Source: a virus
Virus record (IMG/VR): IMGVR_UViG_3300047563_000035
Span: 1 to 27,829 of that record
Direction: 5' to 3' (one strand)
Length of the DNA stretch: 27,829 bases
Below the pieces are notes generated by a model. That model had not been told where the DNA came from and did not search any database. It was given only the letters and a program-made list of their open reading frames with translations. The position numbers were made by a program, and so were the translations under genes. Shown here piece by piece: positions 17,832 through 26,160 of the stretch (positions within the stretch are counted from its first letter, which is position 1; each line of letters starts with the position of its first letter).

Positions 17832-18035
17832 TTAAAAAGATATGTCGTCGTCTAAATCGTCGTGAGGTTTCTTCTCGACCCTTGCCACGAGCATATATTC
17901 TCGGGTGGTGTTGTGAGAATGGAGCCAAGAATACTCCTGTTGTGCCTGCTTCTCGTCGTAAAAGACACACCCCTTGCTCCAACTATCATCCATTTCCAGA
18001 TCACGTCTGGTTTCAGCGTCCCTGATCCTATACAA
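17832..18035 (-). CDS. Hypothetical protein, about 67 aa, last gene of the ligase cluster
   Basis: Basic/acidic alternating N-terminus (YRIRDAETRRDLEMDDSW), a CVFYDEKQAQQEYSWLHSHN middle and a tail of Asp residues (DDLDDDISF). The start is uncertain: TTG 18035 overlaps the ATP-grasp stop by 8 bases, the open frame extends to 18110, and the first ATG is well inside. No family recognised. Its place directly after the ATP-grasp gene makes it a possible accessory or small substrate protein, which is speculation. Confidence 0.5.
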   Translation of the reverse strand: MYRIRDAETRRDLEMDDSWSKGCVFYDEKQAQQEYSWLHSHNTTREYMLVARVEKKPHDDLDDDISF

Positions 18036-18792
18036 AATCAGCAATCGCTTGCTTGTATCTGTCTGCGGTTCGGTCTTCGAGACCACAGGCTGTGTTGACC
18101 TCGAGCACAAAGGCTTTTCCTTCTTTTTCGTTCCAGATTACATCGACACCACCAAAATCAAGGCCGAGAGCTATAAGAGCATTCTCGGCCTGATCTAGTA
18201 CGTCTTGGGGGACTTCGTTAATAGGTGCTTCAACGAAGACGAAACCCCCTTCGAGATTGCGGACCTGCCAATTCGGGTTTTCTACATCAAGTTTACGAGC
18301 TTTACGCTGAACAAAGAACGGGAACGCATCATCCGGCCCCCCATTTGAAAAAACATGGACACGATACTCGTCCTTCTTCTTGATATACCTCGTGTACAGA
18401 GGTGCATCGACAAGCTCTTCGACATTGTTGCAGATCACGATACCTGCTCCAGAATGCCCTCTCAAGACCGTTCGGGCCACAAGGGGGAAGACATTGGCTG
18501 GTGCTGCGTTTGCTGCTGCACGGCCCTCGAAACAGTCAGGAATGCGTACTCCTGCTGCCGACAAAGCCTTGAAGGTCGCCAGCTTGCACTGTGCTACCTG
18601 TACTTCGGTGTTGAGGGTGGTGGCGGGGGCGAAAACAGGAAGAGCACTAGAACCCCAATTGATAACCACATCACCAAGTCGTGGCCTGTACTTAGACCCG
18701 GCATGTTTCAGAACCTTTCCTTCGAGTGCCTCGGCCAATTTCTTCGCAGAAGCCGAACCCTGCTTGTATGGGTAGATACGATACTTGGTCAT
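18028..18792 (-). CDS. ATP-grasp amide/peptide ligase, phage type
   Basis: A 254-residue ATP-grasp enzyme; these activate a carboxylate as acyl phosphate and join it to an amine. A glycine-rich ATP loop is at about 111-118 (RGHSGAGI). DEYRVHVF (141-148) supplies the conserved Arg. DFGGVDVIW (212-220) and FVLEVNTACGLED (228-240) supply the metal-binding Glu/Asn residues of the RimK/YheCD type. Phages of the phiEco32 group carry similar small ATP-grasp proteins beside COOH-NH2 ligases. It follows the Amidoligase_2 gene by 5 bases, indicating one transcript. Substrates are unknown. Confidence 0.87.
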   Translation of the reverse strand: MTKYRIYPYKQGSASAKKLAEALEGKVLKHAGSKYRPRLGDVVINWGSSALPVFAPATTLNTEVQVAQCKLATFKALSAAGVRIPDCFEGRAAANAAPANVFPLVARTVLRGHSGAGIVICNNVEELVDAPLYTRYIKKKDEYRVHVFSNGGPDDAFPFFVQRKARKLDVENPNWQVRNLEGGFVFVEAPINEVPQDVLDQAENALIALGLDFGGVDVIWNEKEGKAFVLEVNTACGLEDRTADRYKQAIADFV

Positions 18793-18797
18793 CAGAA

Positions 18798-20081
18798 CTA
18801 TGCCTCATCTGCTTCGGGGGGGATAGGACGGTCGAACTCAGGCTCGAACGGGTCACGGGCAGGACGAACCTTGATCGCTTTCATACGAGGACGCACCTCG
18901 TTTTCGTCGATTATACGCACCGGACGAGGTGCATTCCTCAACTGCTGGGCTGCGTCACCCCAACGCTCTGCAACACGAGCCTGACGATCCTGTTGCAAGA
19001 ACTGTTCCATGTTCATCCCCACGTCAGCTCCCGGTTCACCGCGCGGACGATTGAACGGGTTGAAGACCGGAGGCTGTACCAGACGTGCACCACGTCGCGG
19101 ACCACCCGCCACTTGGCCACCACCTGCAAACAATGCCGGATCGACATCAAGCTCCGGTTCTGAATCACCACCGAATGATGCCCAAAAATCACGACCTCGA
19201 AGACGCACCTGATCGAACTCGGTGCCGATTCTATAACACATCATCTGGACGAGCCGAAGCCCTTCGTAGATGGATGCGTTTATCTCATGCTCGTCGATCC
19301 CCTTGGTGAGCAAGATAAAGTTCTCTTCCGAGAACACTTCCTTGACGAAGCCGAGCGGCGTCTTGACAGAGATTGCCTCTATCATATGCACCGGGTTCTT
19401 CATCGTGTAGCACGCATACCCACAGAACTCGTTGAGGATGTTGAGCCACGAAACGATGTCTTCTTCGGTGTCCAGCCCTCGCATGGCACGGAACTCGACC
19501 GTGCCAAACTTGTTGATGGCAGCGAGGTTCAGCGAACAGTATCGGAAGTCCTCACGGAACGCACCGAAGTTCTGCTTGTTGAAAACAGCATCCGAAATCC
19601 ACTGCACCTGCTCCTCCGCATGACGAGAAGACAGGCAGAACAGATTGCCGCGACGATCCTCACCGCAGTAGCGATCCAGAAGGTCTTCGAGAATGGTGAA
19701 CAGGATGAACATATTCACCAACTGGTATGCATTCTTGTCGCCCATATTGAAGTGGACGTGGGTGGACGTGCGGTTCGAGCACACGAGCTTCGCCTTGCGC
19801 TTCTCGAAATACTTGAACAACGTCGAGATGCGTTCGATCGAAGTATTGTACTTGACAGGACCGTTGAAGACCCATTCACACGACGAACCGTGGTTGTCGC
19901 GAAGCGAACCGTCCGTATCTGGTGCCCAATCTTTGACGAGGTTGAGGTCGGAACCATCCCAATCGACGTTGCGGCCTTCGCATTCCAGCTCGATACCAAA
20001 CAAGTCTCCTTGCTTTGGGGCGCGGGCCAGCTTGCTGACATTAGGGATCGGTGAATTAAGAAAATCTTGAAGACGGGTCAT
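18798..20081 (-). CDS. Amidoligase_2 family protein with disordered C-terminus
   Basis: A 427-residue protein. The first about 300 residues show the glutamine-synthetase-fold amidoligase pattern: GIELECEG with E31, E33 and E35 (metal/ATP side), TDGSL, a STHVHFNMG strand (about 105-113) and GTVEFRAMRG (about 194-203). Such enzymes make amide bonds using ATP. Residues about 310-427 are Pro/Arg/Gly-rich and look disordered, unusual for the family, and may bind nucleic acid or a partner. AGGAG is 7 bases before the ATG. Spacing to neighbours is 5-9 bases. Confidence 0.85.
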   Translation of the reverse strand: MTRLQDFLNSPIPNVSKLARAPKQGDLFGIELECEGRNVDWDGSDLNLVKDWAPDTDGSLRDNHGSSCEWVFNGPVKYNTSIERISTLFKYFEKRKAKLVCSNRTSTHVHFNMGDKNAYQLVNMFILFTILEDLLDRYCGEDRRGNLFCLSSRHAEEQVQWISDAVFNKQNFGAFREDFRYCSLNLAAINKFGTVEFRAMRGLDTEEDIVSWLNILNEFCGYACYTMKNPVHMIEAISVKTPLGFVKEVFSEENFILLTKGIDEHEINASIYEGLRLVQMMCYRIGTEFDQVRLRGRDFWASFGGDSEPELDVDPALFAGGGQVAGGPRRGARLVQPPVFNPFNRPRGEPGADVGMNMEQFLQQDRQARVAERWGDAAQQLRNAPRPVRIIDENEVRPRMKAIKVRPARDPFEPEFDRPIPPEADEA

Positions 20082-20090
20082 CTATTTCTC

Positions 20091-20747
20091 CTATGCTAGC
20101 GGAATACGACATTCCTCAGCCTCTTCCCGAAGGAAGTGGAACTTGGGAGGAAGGTTCAGGGCTTTCTGACCCCTCACAGCGATGCCACACCTGATGCCCT
20201 TGTGCATCAGCAGCAGTGCTTCGAGGTCGTGGTCTATTAGGAACGCGAACGAACGACTGACCGCCACAGAGGAGTTATCCTTGTTACCAAGCATCTCGCC
20301 CGCTTCGGTGAAGGTCGGGAACTTTCCCGACACCATGTCAACAAAGCCCTTCGACCCGATCATCATGTTGAAGTGGAGGTTACCCGACTTATTGCCGCGA
20401 ATGTTGGTGAGCGAACAGGTGTTGGCCGACAGACCCTGCTGATTCTGTCGGATGGGAACACGAGACGCACAGATAGCCTCGCCGCCATGATTGAAGTAGC
20501 CCATCTTGAAAGGAGCCAAATCAAACTTCTTGGACGAGAGATATTTTCGTGTCTCCTTACCACCATTTTCACGTCCCCCATAAGGGAGTTCATAGAAGAA
20601 GACACGAGCGATCTCCTTCTTATCCTCGTCGTCCGGGATATTCACCCTACTAATAAGAACAGGTGCACCATCGTACAGAACGACAGTACCTTCTAAACGA
20701 AACTTGACTTCCTTTGTTGTTTCGTAAGTTTCACCTCTAAGAGACAT
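20091..20747 (-). CDS. Unknown protein of the peptide-ligase cluster, 218 aa
   Basis: A soluble protein with no motif I can name. Visible features are a beta-rich N-terminal half (VKFRLEGTVVLYDGAPVLI), a Gly/Glu/Lys loop (PYGGRENGGKETRK), a Cys pair region, and a helical C-terminal part with FLIDHDLEALLLMHKG. It sits between two amidoligase-fold genes with 9- and 17-base gaps, with AAGGAG 9 bases before its ATG. The position suggests a ligase subunit or the acceptor protein of the reaction. This is inference from context only. Confidence 0.75.
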   Translation of the reverse strand: MSLRGETYETTKEVKFRLEGTVVLYDGAPVLISRVNIPDDEDKKEIARVFFYELPYGGRENGGKETRKYLSSKKFDLAPFKMGYFNHGGEAICASRVPIRQNQQGLSANTCSLTNIRGNKSGNLHFNMMIGSKGFVDMVSGKFPTFTEAGEMLGNKDNSSVAVSRSFAFLIDHDLEALLLMHKGIRCGIAVRGQKALNLPPKFHFLREEAEECRIPLA

Positions 20748-20764
20748 GTTGCTTGCTCCTTGTA

Positions 20765-21586
20765 TCAGAGTGCCCGAGCCTGAGCGACGATAGCCTTACC
20801 GTTCGGGACGGTATTCAGGATAAAGTGCTCAGCCAAATAGGCATCACTTAGATTTATGCTATTGATGAGACGATCTTCGCCGATCTTGTTAGCAGGGCGG
20901 ACACCCTTCAACAGATCGTTGACAGCCTGCACGGTCTGGTTGAACACGAACCGCATACGGTTCTCATTCAGCAACCACGCATTCGAGAGAACGCGATACT
21001 CGACACCGTAAGGCTTGGGGCGGAATGCCCCAGCAGCGCCATACATCTTGCGACGTTGAATGTCCTTGTCGAACAACAAGGATGGAAGACCAAGGTAACA
21101 GTCGAGCTGTTTGATGAGAGTAGCACAGCGGATCATGTGTTCGTCGCTGCTCGGGTCCGCATCTTGGCAGAAGCCAATGTGTACGTGACCGGATGCAGTC
21201 CGCATGGTACCGTTGTTGTCGGGACGTGGATTAGCTTTGCCAGTGTAAGCGTTGTAATCGGGCATACACCCAAGCTCCTTGGCTTCGTCCGGCTGTGCCC
21301 GGAAGTGATTGCCGTTGAACTTGCACGACGGCACGATGGCGAAGTCGTAACCCGGAACCATCTCCTTCATCTGACGCATGACAGACTGATTGAACCGAAC
21401 AAAGTCGTCGGCGTTGTCCGCCGGGTCTATGTTGTATTCCAGAGCCATACCGTCCACCTGAACGGCGCCATCCTCAACCCGGAAAGGAGCTTCCTTCGTT
21501 CCGGGGATCAACCCATGTGCCGAACGAAACTTGCCGTCCTGCGTGACGAACAGTTCGGGGTCACACCCAATGGTAATCTTCATCAT
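20765..21586 (-). CDS. phiEco32-like COOH-NH2 ligase type 2
   Basis: A 273-residue protein of the phage COOH.NH2 ligase-type 2 family (glutamine-synthetase-like fold). ITIGCDPELFV at the N-terminus carries the conserved D-P-E. VDGMALEYNIDPA, a SGHVHIGF strand and GVEYRVLSNAW (E/R) match the E, H and ER strands of amidoligases. The family name comes from E. coli phage phiEco32. Start at 21586 is chosen since AAGGA is 6 bases upstream; longer frames (21646) would overlap the GATase stop. It differs from the Amidoligase_2 gene downstream, so the cluster has two ligases of this fold plus an ATP-grasp. Confidence 0.87.
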   Translation of the reverse strand: MMKITIGCDPELFVTQDGKFRSAHGLIPGTKEAPFRVEDGAVQVDGMALEYNIDPADNADDFVRFNQSVMRQMKEMVPGYDFAIVPSCKFNGNHFRAQPDEAKELGCMPDYNAYTGKANPRPDNNGTMRTASGHVHIGFCQDADPSSDEHMIRCATLIKQLDCYLGLPSLLFDKDIQRRKMYGAAGAFRPKPYGVEYRVLSNAWLLNENRMRFVFNQTVQAVNDLLKGVRPANKIGEDRLINSINLSDAYLAEHFILNTVPNGKAIVAQARAL

Positions 21587-21602
21587 GTTCATTCCTTCTC
21601 TC

Positions 21603-22790
21603 TCAGTGACACACAACTTGAACTTTCTTGTCGGGTTCAGGCTCACCCGTCAAGCACTTGTAACAGATAGGCTTGCTCGGAGCCAACCAAGCGAACCGAT
21701 CTTTCTCAGTGATGAACTCCAACTCGCACCAGCCGCAGCCGGTTTCAAGTTTTTTTTCCAACTCCTTCGCAGTCAAAAGCACGCCGGCATAGCCTTTGTA
21801 CTTCTTGGCCGAAAGGATGTCACGAACCTTGCCGTCAGGCTGCTCGCTCGATGTGCCGGTGGATGAACTGGCGCTCGTCTCCGCTAGTTTCCCGCCATTG
21901 CTTGGTCCGTTCGTCCCATATGGCGTACTCGAAACTGCTGCTATCGCGCTGCTGCTCGTGCTGCTGCCCGTGCTGCTGCCCGCAGCCTTCGCCGCTCCTT
22001 GCGTGTGACCCCCACCAGTCCAGACTTCCCTGTTCCAGCTTTGAAAAAAAGTGGGAGTCTGCTTTCCGACTACGCCTCCTTTGCGTTCCATGACGATTTC
22101 TTCGTTCATATTCATGGGCGCAGGGAAACGATACAGAGTATCCTCGGCGAACGAGAACACCTTGTCGTCCTGCAACTGCAGGTCATAACGCGAACAGGCG
22201 ACGCGGATCATCCACATCTCCGATGCCCAAACGAGGGTCTTCTTGCCTTCTTCAAAGGCATAAAAGAGAGGACGTTCCTTGTTACGGAGAACCCGTAACT
22301 CTTCCTCTAGATGATCGTAGTAGGTCAGTGCCCACGCACCTTCGACCTTCTCGATGGTCTTCTCAAGACCCTCGACGGCGATGTTGTTGTACAAAGCCTC
22401 GCTGTCCGTGCCGAACCGAGCATGGTCGATCAGAACGTGCTTGTTTTTGAGAGTGCCGTTATGAGCACCAACAACAAGACAGGCACCATCATCGTCGTCG
22501 ATCATAAACGGATGAGAATTGGTCTTGACGTTCTTGCCGACCGTACCAAATCGATTGTGACCGAGCCACAGGAAATCATTCAGCTTTAGATGCTGATCTA
22601 GTTTCGGGCCTTCGACGAACTCATAACCGGGGATAGTGGCCTTGAGAACAGCCGTGTCAGTGTTGTGACGAATAGCCGCGACGCCAGTGCTGTCACGACC
22701 TCGCCATGTGTCCAAATAGAGCATGGCAGCAAGCACGTCTTTGTGCTTTGCCAGCATATTGCTGGAGTAGATACCGACAAGTCCGCACAT
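21603..22790 (-). CDS. Class II glutamine amidotransferase with C-terminal zinc ribbon
   Basis: A 395-residue protein. The N-terminal Ntn glutaminase domain has Cys2 as nucleophile (MCGLVGIYS), RGRDSTG (31-36), HNRFGT (78-83), AHNGTL (109-114, oxyanion Asn/Gly) and TDSEALY (128-134), the GlmS/PurF/AsnB pattern. It releases ammonia from glutamine. No synthetase domain follows; instead there is a Ser/Thr/Gly-rich linker (about 268-325) and a Cys4 zinc ribbon (C352, C355, C376, C379). Ammonia may be passed to a ligase encoded next door. AAGGA is 9 bases upstream. The zinc ribbon on a GATase is unusual. Confidence 0.9.
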   Translation of the reverse strand: MCGLVGIYSSNMLAKHKDVLAAMLYLDTWRGRDSTGVAAIRHNTDTAVLKATIPGYEFVEGPKLDQHLKLNDFLWLGHNRFGTVGKNVKTNSHPFMIDDDDGACLVVGAHNGTLKNKHVLIDHARFGTDSEALYNNIAVEGLEKTIEKVEGAWALTYYDHLEEELRVLRNKERPLFYAFEEGKKTLVWASEMWMIRVACSRYDLQLQDDKVFSFAEDTLYRFPAPMNMNEEIVMERKGGVVGKQTPTFFQSWNREVWTGGGHTQGAAKAAGSSTGSSTSSSAIAAVSSTPYGTNGPSNGGKLAETSASSSTGTSSEQPDGKVRDILSAKKYKGYAGVLLTAKELEKKLETGCGWCELEFITEKDRFAWLAPSKPICYKCLTGEPEPDKKVQVVCH

Positions 22791-22817
22791 ACGGGAATTC
22801 CTTTCTTGGTGTGTGGC

Positions 22818-23498
22818 TCAGCAAGCTGGGAAGATGTAGTTATCCACGAGGTCGAGGAAGTAGTTCCGACACGCTCCATGTTGAAACTCAGGATGCGGCT
22901 GGAAACACAGCGTCAGGCTGTCAGGATACCACAACACTTCCATATCGTCGGCGACGGCTTCGTCGCGCTCGATCTTTTCAGATGCTCCTTCCTTGCGTGT
23001 AGACAGTTCGGCAACAGCAATGATTTCCGCATCGTCAGCGGCTCGCATTTGCTGGTGATGGGTGCTGGTCATGCCATCGACAACTTGTCCCGTCCGCATG
23101 TCGATGATGCTGTGATTGCGTCCGGCGTGATTGTTCACGTCCTGCCACAATCCGCCACCGTTCATCACGTTCAGGAACTGACCGCCGCGACAGATGCCAA
23201 TCATAGGCTTCTTGAGGGCCAGAGCCTCGCCATACACACCAGCCTCATATTCATCACGCTTAGTGTTGAAGTGAGTTACGGACAGCGCCTTCTCCTTGTA
23301 ATATCTCGGATCGACATCCTCGCCGCCAGTGAAACATATGATGTCGGCGTCCTCGACCGAGCGGGCACCCTTCATGCCAGCATCGTGGAACATCTTCATG
23401 TACTGGAAGCCACCGCCGACGACGAACACACGAAGATCATAAATCTCACGCATGGTTGCCTCGCCTTCCAGCTTCTTGAGTTCAACAGGGGTCAACAT
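22818..23498 (-). CDS. Class I glutamine amidotransferase-like peptidase C26
   Basis: A 226-residue protein with the class I GATase/gamma-glutamyl hydrolase triad: C103 in GICRGGQ, H202 and E204 in QPHPEF. FTGGEDVDPRYY and the TSTHHQQM loop are typical of the PuuD/C26 subgroup, which hydrolyses gamma-glutamyl amide bonds. In this cluster it could cleave a gamma-glutamyl intermediate after ligation, as in gamma-glutamylated pathways, or supply ammonia. Three ATGs stand in a row; 23498 has the best spacing (7) to AAGGAG. Confidence 0.9.
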   Translation of the reverse strand: MLTPVELKKLEGEATMREIYDLRVFVVGGGFQYMKMFHDAGMKGARSVEDADIICFTGGEDVDPRYYKEKALSVTHFNTKRDEYEAGVYGEALALKKPMIGICRGGQFLNVMNGGGLWQDVNNHAGRNHSIIDMRTGQVVDGMTSTHHQQMRAADDAEIIAVAELSTRKEGASEKIERDEAVADDMEVLWYPDSLTLCFQPHPEFQHGACRNYFLDLVDNYIFPAC

Positions 23499-23510
23499 CA
23501 TCATTCTCCT

Positions 23511-24461
23511 TCAAAGATCGAGATCGAGAAAAACAGTATCCTTCGATGGCGGAGTGGGCGGGGTCGTTACACCCTCCACTTCATGCTGCCATTCGAGGAC
23601 ACGACGAACGAACTCGGGACCATCAGCGCCTTCGCCGATAATCTTGCCACCCCATCCGTCATCTTTCTGGTAAGGCTTGCAGAAGCCTTTGATGACAACA
23701 GAAGGCGTAGCCTGCTTGCCGATCTTGCCACCCTTGGCCTTTACGTCCGTCCTGAACACGCTGGCCGTGTCAGTTGCAGCCGGGTTGATGGTGCCCTCCA
23801 ACAAAGAGGCAACGTCAGGCTCGCCTCCTCCGTAGGCATCGAACACGGTGGAGTGTCCTTCCACCCCGGTAAAGCCGAACGTAGCGCCCTTGATGGTGCG
23901 GACGTAGGAACAGACTAGAACAGCTAGTAGAGGGTTCACACCGCCCTTGTAGAGCGCCAGCCATGTGTCCAGAGCCTTGGCCCCTTCCGTGCTGTAGCGA
24001 AGCACTTTGCAAATCCACATGGCTTGTGCCTGCGTCAGAGCGCCGGGACCGCAGAGCAGAATGACGCCGCCGTTCAGCAGGCTGTCATCATCGTCACGGT
24101 TCAGCACGAACTCGGAGAACGGGGATTCACGAGCCATCCACAGGATGATGGCATCCATGGCTTCTTCGCTGCACACCGACTTGCTGTGCTTCTTGCTGTG
24201 GCACGACAACACGAGGAACGGCTTGGCGTCCTTCGGATAGGTGGTGGTCCACGAGGTCGTGGACCACCTTTCGTCTTTGCTACGACGCACCTTGGTGTAA
24301 GCGTAGCCAATCCACGAGTGACAGGCAGTGTGAGGAGTGACGAACTCCTCACCGTCGAGATCGAGGCAAGTGCCTGAGCAAACGCCCGAGTCCCACTCCT
24401 CGTTAATCTCGATCAATTTCTTCTTGGCAGCCGCCAAAACCTTATCTGAAACGTCCGTCAT
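23511..24461 (-). CDS. Unknown protein of the peptide-ligase cluster, 316 aa
   Basis: No family recognised. The N-terminal part has a C-x3-C (VCSGTC) and a Cys/His-containing stretch (TPHTACHSW). The middle has a hydrophobic GGVILLCGPGALTQAQAMWICKVLRY. The C-terminal third is Gly/Lys-rich and ends acidic (VFLDLDL). The start at 24461 has GAGG 6 bases upstream and lies within the GGCT gene end (20-base overlap), so it is coupled to it. Its gene contains a perfect 12-bp inverted repeat (24243-24268) encoding a Ser/Thr/Trp run. It could be an adaptor, scaffold or the modified substrate. Confidence 0.75.
   Translation of the reverse strand: MTDVSDKVLAAAKKKLIEINEEWDSGVCSGTCLDLDGEEFVTPHTACHSWIGYAYTKVRRSKDERWSTTSWTTTYPKDAKPFLVLSCHSKKHSKSVCSEEAMDAIILWMARESPFSEFVLNRDDDDSLLNGGVILLCGPGALTQAQAMWICKVLRYSTEGAKALDTWLALYKGGVNPLLAVLVCSYVRTIKGATFGFTGVEGHSTVFDAYGGGEPDVASLLEGTINPAATDTASVFRTDVKAKGGKIGKQATPSVVIKGFCKPYQKDDGWGGKIIGEGADGPEFVRRVLEWQHEVEGVTTPPTPPSKDTVFLDLDL
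24243..24268. repeat. Perfect inverted repeat, 12-bp arms
   Basis: GGTGGTCCACGA (24243-24254), spacer GG, then TCGTGGACCACC (24257-24268). All 12 positions pair. It lies inside the coding sequence of the unknown 316-aa protein and would form a very stable RNA hairpin. Confidence 0.9.
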
Positions 24462-24807
24462 TCTCGCCTCGCTCTTGTTGAGTGTAAATAAGCCAGTCAC
24501 CGCAGGAAATCAGTCGTTGAGGATTGAACTCTTGATTGTACTCATAAATCCAGCCATCCAAAATCGGACGGCGGATATACAAGCTGTCAACCGTAAACTT
24601 CGGGTGGTACCCTTCGTAGGAGTCAACAGCATCCAAATCCTCCACCTCGATCTTCTCGCAAGTGACGAAGCTGTCACCGCCAAGGATGATGCCCGGATAC
24701 CATCCTAGATCGTACAGCTTTCCCGGTATCTGCACAGTTCTCGGCTCACCCGGACGCAGAGTTCCGTACACATAGACGGTGTGTCTCACCGATTTTGTCT
24801 CAGCCAC
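24442..24807 (-). CDS. Gamma-glutamylcyclotransferase-like (AIG2/GGCT) protein
   Basis: A 121-residue protein of the GGCT fold. VYVYGTLRPGE near the N-terminus is the substrate-binding YGxLxxG loop, LYDLGWYPGI follows, and AVDSYEGYHPKF contains the Glu expected as catalytic base, then YIRRP and IYEYN. Members release 5-oxoproline from gamma-glutamyl amines or peptides. Start: GGAGG abuts an ATG at 24813 but lies 6 bases before GTG 24807, so the GTG is favoured. It overlaps the upstream zinc-ribbon gene by 8 bases. It may recycle or cap gamma-glutamyl products of the ligases. Confidence 0.82.
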   Translation of the reverse strand: MAETKSVRHTVYVYGTLRPGEPRTVQIPGKLYDLGWYPGIILGGDSFVTCEKIEVEDLDAVDSYEGYHPKFTVDSLYIRRPILDGWIYEYNQEFNPQRLISCGDWLIYTQQERGENDGRFR

Positions 24808-24967
24808 CAGCATCCTCCACAGGGCACGGAACGTATTTGAATACGCTCAGGTTCATGGGCCACGGATAATGGATGCGGACAGCTTGATGCTTACCGTTCT
24901 CACCACCGCAGACAGGGCACTCGTTCACCGGCTCTTGGCGAAGAGTGCGAAGTGTCGACACGCTCAT
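24800..24967 (-). CDS. Zinc-knuckle microprotein, 55 aa
   Basis: Begins MSVSTLRTLRQEPVNE, then CPVCGGENGKH and later a single PCPVE cysteine: one C-x2-C knuckle plus one Cys and nearby His residues. The ATG overlaps the stop of the dioxygenase-like gene (ATGA) with GGGAG 10 bases upstream, and its end overlaps the GGCT gene. Coupling on both sides shows it belongs to the cluster. Small size makes it a candidate carrier or substrate, though that is a guess. Confidence 0.72.
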   Translation of the reverse strand: MSVSTLRTLRQEPVNECPVCGGENGKHQAVRIHYPWPMNLSVFKYVPCPVEDAGG

Positions 24968-25578
24968 TGGATCGTTACTCCCGGACAGTTGAGCCGAACC
25001 ATCGTGCGATAGCTGTCAACCTGCACAGGCAGGCTTTCGTGCAGCGTCGCCACGGTGCCGCAGTAGGCACGGTTGCGGTTCATGTGAAGGACAGCGAGAT
25101 TGTTCGTCTCGATGCTCGAACAGTCGCCACCTTCACCGATGGGACCGTCATAGGTGCCGATGAAAGCACGAGCGGCACTCACATTCGATGCGAGGATCAG
25201 AGCCTCGGGATCGGTGAAGTCGATATCATCCCAGCCTGCGCTCATATGGCTTCCACCGTGACCACCACGACCGCGATGACCGCCATAGCCACGATGACCA
25301 CCGCCACCATGCGCCGACAGCGACGGATGCCAGTAACCGTCAACATGAAGGCCGGGCCGACGCTGTGCTGTGCCAGCCGGAACGAACGCCTGATCTGCCA
25401 TGAAATAGATCGGCTGATCGGAAGTTATTCCAACCAACATGGCGTCAACCGTATTCTGCCAGTGTGCGAGATGGTCGGGAAGACCCTGCTCCTGATAGAA
25501 TGGGACCATGTAATGACGCTCCGCATTGAAGCCCGGAAAGAACACAGGGCCACGCTCTTGCATGATGCTCTGAAACAT
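24964..25578 (-). CDS. Putative 2OG/Fe(II) dioxygenase-like protein with Gly/His-rich loop
   Basis: A 204-residue protein. H78-x-D80 (GLHVDGYW) and H180 with R191 (LHESLPV...RTMVRLN) fit the HxD...H-x10-R pattern of 2-oxoglutarate/Fe(II) oxygenases, which hydroxylate peptides, amino acids or nucleobases. Between the halves is an odd low-complexity insertion (about 90-111) of Gly with five His and several Arg, which could bind metal. A strong site (AAGGAGG) precedes the ATG. It is the first gene of the cluster, downstream of a gene-poor stretch. I infer the family from residue pattern only; it could be another cupin-like protein. Confidence 0.55.
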   Translation of the reverse strand: MFQSIMQERGPVFFPGFNAERHYMVPFYQEQGLPDHLAHWQNTVDAMLVGITSDQPIYFMADQAFVPAGTAQRRPGLHVDGYWHPSLSAHGGGGHRGYGGHRGRGGHGGSHMSAGWDDIDFTDPEALILASNVSAARAFIGTYDGPIGEGGDCSSIETNNLAVLHMNRNRAYCGTVATLHESLPVQVDSYRTMVRLNCPGVTIQ

Positions 25579-25725
25579 CGCTACCTCCTTGTTGGTTGGT
25601 TGGTCTCTTGGGGTGGAGTTGCACCACCTAGTCCCTCATACTCTATTAGTAATCATCCGTTTTTAGACTGGCGATCCATTACCTAGCCACAACACCGGAG
25701 CGAAGTGGTTATGAGTTCGTGCACG

Positions 25726-26028
25726 TCATGTAGCCACACCAATGGGGTGCTTGCATTCGGCATCGTTGGTACGACGCTTAGGCTCTTTTTCAGAAACGGC
25801 AATTTTGTAAGAATTGCTGGGTTCCGGCACAGAGGAAATATCAGGCTGCTGACCAAGAGCCAGAAGGAAACAGGAACACAGGAGATCGAAATCACATTTT
25901 AGAACTAATGTCTAAGGTGATCTGGGCCGTGTCGGCACTACTTTTTGAGGAAAACCATTCAGATACTCGAATACTTTCTCTGTTTGATTACTGCACTTGC
26001 AAGTTGGCGTGAAAGTTACGGTTGTGAT
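25726..26028 (-). pseudogene. Coding-like frame interrupted by an amber codon, in a gene-poor stretch
   Basis: Bases 25579-26160 hold no confident gene. One - strand frame is open from 26028 to 25726 except for a TAG at 25914-25912. Upstream of it the translation ends EYLNGFPQKVVPTRPRSP and carries a C-x-C. Downstream it runs from a Cys/Leu-rich segment into PDISSVPEPSNSYKIAV and ends KHPIGVAT. Codon choice looks like the neighbouring genes, but there is no ATG/GTG/TTG with a ribosome site. It may be a decayed gene, two tiny genes with odd starts, or chance. A 28-codon GTG frame (MAKLLILPKSQ...) lies just upstream. No promoter could be identified. Confidence 0.3.
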
Positions 26029-26160
26029 TTATTCCAATCACTTAGCATTTACACTCCTACAGCCCTCTAATTACTAGCGTTAGCTCCAACCCTGCCGAAC
26101 CTGTTCCCATCTGGCTCTTGGGTAGAATAAGCAGTTTAGCCACATGCTTAGGTGAGGTTG

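Follow-up and report, generated by a model that had tools for sequence, protein, structure and literature searches.

Oxygenases that depend on 2-oxoglutarate (2OG) are, as such, well known in phages. The PhyH-like members of the superfamily have the spacing HxD...H-x10-R, at strand positions that match those of the phage protein described here. The prolyl hydroxylase PHD2 has the spacing H-x8-R, unlike the H-x10-R of the phage protein, and the halogenases have HxG where the phage family has HxD or HxE. Among the phage enzymes, the 2OG-Fe(II) oxygenases of PHROG 61 are described in the Phold paper as resembling EGLN3 in structure (PMC12774648), and other 2OG oxygenases are named in a jumbo-phage overview (PMC7824862) and in a paper on OM43 phages (PMC10580990). 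The PaBG paper gives a cysteine dioxygenase as gene 143; that gene is distinct from PaBG_00317, the PaBG homologue of the family studied here. A peptide-ligase module is reported for Sinorhizobium phage phiM6, which is described as related to the marine phage HMO-2011 (PMC6256558).

The window analysed here, a virus record of 27,829 bases, resembles phiM6 in gene content. One of its genes encodes a protein that is predicted, from residue conservation and modelled fold, to be a small single-domain Fe(II)/2OG-dependent oxygenase; we put the probability of this assignment at about 0.88. The protein matches phrog_8970, a family annotated as 'unknown function', which is a new, previously unannotated family within a known superfamily. 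In the literature searched, no paper was recognised as describing the phrog_8970 oxygenases. The assignment provides a testable biochemical class for this phage family.

The probable oxygenase gene, its family and its carriers

The ORF lies at 24964-25578 on the minus strand, where the first-pass annotation had correctly placed it; it starts with ATG, encodes 204 residues and is a genuine gene. The ribosome-binding site in front of it is strong: inspection of the upstream bases revealed the Shine-Dalgarno sequence AAGGAGGT (25583-25590, minus strand) four bases ahead of the start codon. The stretch of about 580 bases 5' of the gene (25579-26160) is without coding, is entered by an antisense ORF only and presumably carries the operon promoter; neither Rfam matches nor tRNAs nor sigma-70 consensus sites were found in it. 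The window also has genes which, from their sequences, we take to encode ribonucleotide reductase, ThyX, a metallophosphoesterase, DNA polymerase A and a primase/helicase, followed by a ligase cluster. PADLOC gave no defence-system match for the oxygenase.

The match to phrog_8970 has an E value of 5.4e-53 and places residues 3-201 on positions 2-201 of the 205-position profile; searches of Pfam and NCBIfam with the window protein gave no match. With the window protein as query, tblastn found 46 phage records, 45 of which cover at least 80% of the query; with a jumbo-phage homologue as query, 47 phage records were obtained. Alignment-based scans yielded 36 viral loci and four loci in bacterial genomes, and a scan with the jumbo-phage branch as query yielded eight loci, some of them repeats; two of the loci, L062 and L035, are one contig. 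At two of the four bacterial loci (L044 and L047) the protein is identical to that of viral contigs. L044 lies on chromosome 2 of Cupriavidus necator UYPR2.512, and the protein encoded there is a duplicate of the one from the viral contig L023, so that some of the carriers are probably prophages.

In size the carriers extend from Gordonia phages of 59 kb and rhizobial phages of 68 kb to Ackermannviridae and jumbo phages, among them an uncultured phage of 636 kb. They include phages of Erwinia, Serratia, Pseudomonas, Gordonia, Rhizobium, Vibrio and others, and among the cultured ones are 201phi2-1, PaBG and phiM6. Structural relatives in two giant viruses, Catovirus CTV1 (BFVD A0A1V0S8Z7, E 1.5e-11, TM-score 0.65) and Orpheovirus (BFVD A0A2I2L347, E 1e-5), suggest, at the level of predicted structure, that the oxygenase family extends beyond phages.

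Predicted fold, conserved residues and proposed mechanism

AlphaFold2, run on the window protein together with 32 relatives, produced a model with a mean pLDDT of 88.2 and a pTM of 0.83, in which block means of 93-98 are reached across most of the core. The model is an eight-strand double-stranded beta-helix, as expected of the superfamily, with core strands at residues 57-66, 71-78, 125-131, 136-143, 162-166, 170-175, 179-184 and 189-199. Strand II ends with H78 and D80, H180 is at the start of strand VII and R191 is near the start of strand VIII, an arrangement that is standard for the Fe(II)/2OG oxygenase superfamily. From these strand positions we infer that H78, D80 and H180 would converge on one metal site.

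A Foldseek search of the PDB with the window model returned 2OG oxygenases as 49 of the 50 matches listed, the exception being the cupin YjgK, with E values of about 1e-3 and TM-scores of only about 0.4 among the matches listed; the enzyme classes, here and in the following comparisons, derive partly from entry titles and partly from general knowledge. With VIA-align, 47 of the 50 matches listed were 2OG oxygenases, and the best match listed was ColD (Z 9.2, rmsd 3.8, 159 residues). The three exceptions, YhcH (1s4c, Z 8.5), YjgK (9jrr, Z 8.3) and HP1029 (4tsd, Z 8.0), come close to the 2OG enzymes in their scores with the window model, as would be expected if the protein were a YhcH-like or structural cupin-fold protein without 2OG chemistry. 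That reading is very unlikely, given that HxD...H-x10-R is essentially invariant in the family and that a second model, of the homologue from jumbo phage 201phi2-1, has the same fold (pLDDT 91.2) and matches 2OG enzymes in all 50 of the VIA-align matches listed (best Z 9.8, rmsd 3.5, 163 residues); in Foldseek, 48 of the 50 matches listed for this second model were 2OG oxygenases. VIA-align pairs the window model with phytanoyl-CoA hydroxylase (2a1x) up to residue 200 of the model, which corresponds to chain residue 284. If the last 20 residues align ungapped, H180 falls on residue 264 and R191 on residue 275 of the hydroxylase, which we take to be its Fe and 2OG residues, respectively.

An Fe(II)/2OG oxygenase had already been proposed in the first-pass annotation, with structure prediction and a fold search as the means of checking it. 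Both models gave a double-stranded beta-helix with 2OG oxygenases as matches, a fold unrelated to cupins was not obtained, and conservation among the homologues supports the proposal as well. The residues named at that stage, H78-x-D80 and H180-x10-R191, are exactly as written. In an alignment of 49 distinct homologues, from which six duplicate proteins had been left out, R73, R74 and H78 occur in all 49 sequences and D80 in all but that of Salicola phage SCTP-2, which has E (48 of 49); H180, R191 and R195 occur in all 48 sequences that have a letter at the respective position. The HxD/E...H metal triad typical of the superfamily is conserved, as is the basic residue about 10 positions past the distal His (R191). 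On the minus strand, the codons of the invariant arginines R73-R74, just ahead of HxD, are at 25357-25362, those of H78-x-D80, the proposed Fe(II) ligands at the end of strand 71-78, at 25339-25347, that of H180, the proposed distal Fe ligand in strand 179-184, at 25039-25041 and that of R191, the proposed ligand of a 2OG carboxylate in strand 189-199, at 25006-25008. As proof of an oxygenase, the motif by itself was rejected. The strict pattern HxD-x40-130-H-x10-R is contained in 438 of 5000 shuffles of the His-rich window protein. Among the 931 ORFs of 150-300 aa in the loci retrieved, 84 contain it, members of the phrog_8970 family being included in this count. It is the family-wide conservation that makes the motif significant, not the pattern as such.

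Searches of the PDB sequences with the window protein revealed no significant match and those with the family profile A5 no match at all; the diverse family profile A2 had one match only, the Fe/2OG halogenase BesD, at E 1.1 with H-x10-R in register. The homologue L011 matched HalD (PF23169) at E 0.077, with 12.8 bits versus a cut-off of 26. In hhalign comparisons the family scored 18.3 with PhyH and 17.1 with HalD, both inside the range of the unrelated controls (10.1-20.6), whereas PhyH and HalD scored 84.4 with each other. At the sequence level no 2OG family was matched significantly, be it in the Pfam search or by hhalign with the PhyH and HalD alignments. The family matches neither the profile of PhyH (PF05721) nor that of the HalD/BesD halogenases (PF23169) significantly, and sequence profiles were not accepted as proof of kinship to either. 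The Gly that replaces the carboxylate ligand in halogenases is not seen in the family, and by this rule HxD, rather than HxG, favours a hydroxylase over a halogenase. Superfamily membership stands on the fold and the invariant residues, not on sequence kinship.

In the mechanism we propose, Fe(II) would be bound by H78, D80 and H180 and chelated by 2OG, whose distal carboxylate would be held by R191. As 2OG is decarboxylated to succinate and CO2, O2 would be activated, and a ferryl species would oxidise, most likely hydroxylate, a substrate within the infected cell. The pocket is probably lined by R73, R74 and R195, all of them invariant. A variable loop, Gly/His-rich or, in the jumbo phages, Gly/Trp-rich, begins right after HxD; it would lie at the entrance to the site and might serve as a flexible lid, which is the simplest reading of its predicted disorder and of its position close behind the Fe-ligand Asp.

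In the window protein the Gly/His/Arg-rich stretch comprises about residues 90-111. Residues 91-113 (codons at 25240-25308, minus strand), between strands II and III, are predicted to be disordered and form the only segment of the window model with a pLDDT below 50. The insertion recognised in the first-pass annotation is present; judged from the aligned sequences it is a family trait and no peculiarity of the window protein. Among 47 near-full-length sequences it measures 15-114 residues between W83 and E125 and consists on average of 17.7% Gly, 10.7% His and 10.8% Pro, versus 9.7, 3.5 and 5.7%, respectively, elsewhere in the proteins (the truncated L042 and L037 were left out of these statistics, of the tree and of the tandem-array count). 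In most of the 47 sequences it is rich in His, Gly and Pro; in the jumbo-phage branch it is rich in Gly and Trp. In the homologue of a 636-kb phage (LR756504.1; L052:5485-6294) imperfect repeats centred on WGG/WGD take the place of His/Gly. A weak 9-bp tandem array in the window (25253-25302, 5.6 copies, 68% matches) overlaps the DNA that encodes the loop. Such arrays overlap the loop in five of the 47 genes only and are located elsewhere in the gene in four, and an origin of the loop from tandem repeats was rejected as a general rule. It is conceivable that these proteins are a distinct, phage-specialised family of 2OG oxygenases, present in phages from ~60 kb up to the one of 636 kb and with a structural relative in Catovirus, in which this fast-evolving loop, grafted beside the metal-binding strand, is itself functional, gathering iron for the site or being hydroxylated in cis or in trans and so tuning the enzyme during infection; we regard this as unlikely.

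Genomic neighbourhood and possible substrates

The oxygenase gene of the window appears to lead the same operon as the ligase cluster. A 55-aa ORF that contains one CPVCGG motif (24800-24967) begins within its last codons, with an overlap of 4 bp (ATGA), and in turn overlaps by 14 bp the start of a gamma-glutamyl cyclotransferase (GGACT) gene (24442-24813; PF06094, E 4.4e-11). After an unknown gene follow those identified by Pfam and PHROG matches as a C26 peptidase, a class II amidotransferase, a COOH-NH2 ligase, an unknown protein, amidoligase_2 and an ATP-grasp protein (18028-23504), all of them on the minus strand. In this tightly packed same-strand run with overlapping ORFs, the earlier description of the gene as heading the ligase cluster is locally true. 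A 329-aa ORF of the cluster (23511-24500, minus strand) has no Pfam match, a weak match to phrog_34254 (E 0.0013) and no BLAST match in the fetched relatives. The 218-aa ORF between the two ligases (20091-20747, minus strand) matches phrog_11055 (E 5.6e-17) and is found at the same place in L006, L022 and L024; its product is likely an unnamed member of the ligase module.

Such an arrangement would suit a tailoring enzyme of the adjacent cluster that hydroxylates the amino acid or peptide joined by the amidoligase and the ATP-grasp enzyme. In line with this reading, the oxygenase gene of L022 adjoins the cluster too, though at the end opposite to that in the window, those of L006, L007, L018 and L024 are within a few kb of cluster genes, and the ligase-bearing oxygenases are clustered on the tree (three changes versus a mean of 6.7 after shuffling, with none of 500 shuffles as low). 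However, the starred (supported) branches force one change only, and inheritance within one lineage from a single origin suffices. The distribution of the two genes also argues against it. With alignment A6 as the query (the COOH-NH2 ligase of the window and three relatives), the ligase was found anywhere in six of 47 oxygenase-bearing records (L018, L021, L022, L024, phiM6 and RHph_I3_11), many of which are fragments in which its absence carries little weight, and in two of the 13 oxygenase-bearing GenBank records titled complete genomes. The ligase occurs in 317 phage records versus 46 with the oxygenase, and Serratia, Erwinia, Gordonia and jumbo phages have the oxygenase family without the cluster. 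The census of 47 records omits duplicates and near-duplicates (e.g. L003, L015, L031, L032, L040, L056, L057, L060 and L062), the 7-kb fragment L042 and the bacterial-genome loci L044-L047. PF14395 was dropped as a census profile because it matched nowhere, the ligase-bearing phiM6 included; a census with PF12224 gave 2 of 14.

The regular co-occurrence expected of a module member was thus not observed. A tailoring role is quite unlikely, the earlier suggestion that the product of the ligases is hydroxylated is not supported, and coupling to ligases was rejected as the general role of the family. The link between oxygenase and ligases is best seen as confined to a small number of lineages, where it may be functional, and does not define the enzyme; the case cautions against reading function from a local ligase neighbourhood. 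No neighbour gene is common to the loci across lineages, as counted after omission of ten near-duplicate loci and with the gene's own antisense or overlapping ORFs and closely related phages set aside. The commonest recurring neighbours are the C26 gene of the ligase module (five loci) and one other family (five loci, at varying distances).

Within the oxygenase assignment, a phage or host protein is ranked first as the substrate, if tentatively, the enzyme then being a protein hydroxylase that acts on virion or host proteins in the manner of prolyl or asparaginyl hydroxylases. The HIF prolyl hydroxylase PHD2 ranks near the top of the fold matches listed (Z 9.1, rmsd 3.5, 135 residues), and in Ackermannviridae of Serratia and Erwinia the gene has that of the major capsid protein on one side and tail completion genes on the other. 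Against this, free-proline hydroxylase, ectoine hydroxylase and kanamycin and fungal metabolite oxygenases match equally well. Collagen-like proteins, the obvious target, exceed the Pfam cut-off in only four of 36 oxygenase-bearing records (six at E <= 0.001), and collagen was rejected as a general substrate; this search and that for phrog_61 covered 36 of the 47 census records. In the 201phi2-1 record, gp193 is noted in the virion by mass spectrometry, unlike the nearby oxygenase homologue gp185, which bears no such note. A small amino-acid-like metabolite is ranked second and is somewhat doubtful as the substrate. A nucleic acid or nucleotide, oxidised by an AlkB- or TET-like enzyme in DNA repair or base modification, is rather unlikely. 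ALKBH3 (8jnr) and ABH2 (3rzh, 3btx) are among the fold matches listed, and in Gordonia phage RogerDodger and Vibrio phage phi50-12 the gene lies in a replication or recombination region, but Pfam and PHROG searches gave no matches to AlkB, TET or JBP families, and over the loci a replication or modification gene is not a constant neighbour.

Comparison with known systems

Phage phiM6 has both the ligase module and a phrog_8970 oxygenase, which its record labels a hypothetical protein, and the gene set of the window is similar; most oxygenase carriers are without the module. The PHROG 61 enzymes, which are described as having an EGLN-like fold, are likewise phage-encoded 2OG oxygenases and form a PHROG family separate from phrog_8970; phrog_61 matches occur in two of the 36 oxygenase-bearing records searched, at places other than the oxygenase gene. 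The halogenases BesD and HalD (PF23169) are the only 2OG family among the sub-threshold sequence matches, with H-x10-R in register. The PHD2/EGLN prolyl hydroxylases have a like fold, with Z of about 9 over 135 residues, and are, as is the phage protein, small and single-domain. From the PhyH-like 2OG oxygenases the phage protein differs in its shorter length (about 200 aa), in the variable, predicted-disordered loop directly after HxD and in having no significant sequence-profile similarity to them. It shares with these enzymes, represented by phytanoyl-CoA hydroxylase (2a1x), PHYHD1 (2opw), EctD, KanJ, SnoN and ColD, the double-stranded beta-helix, at Z scores of 8.2-9.8.
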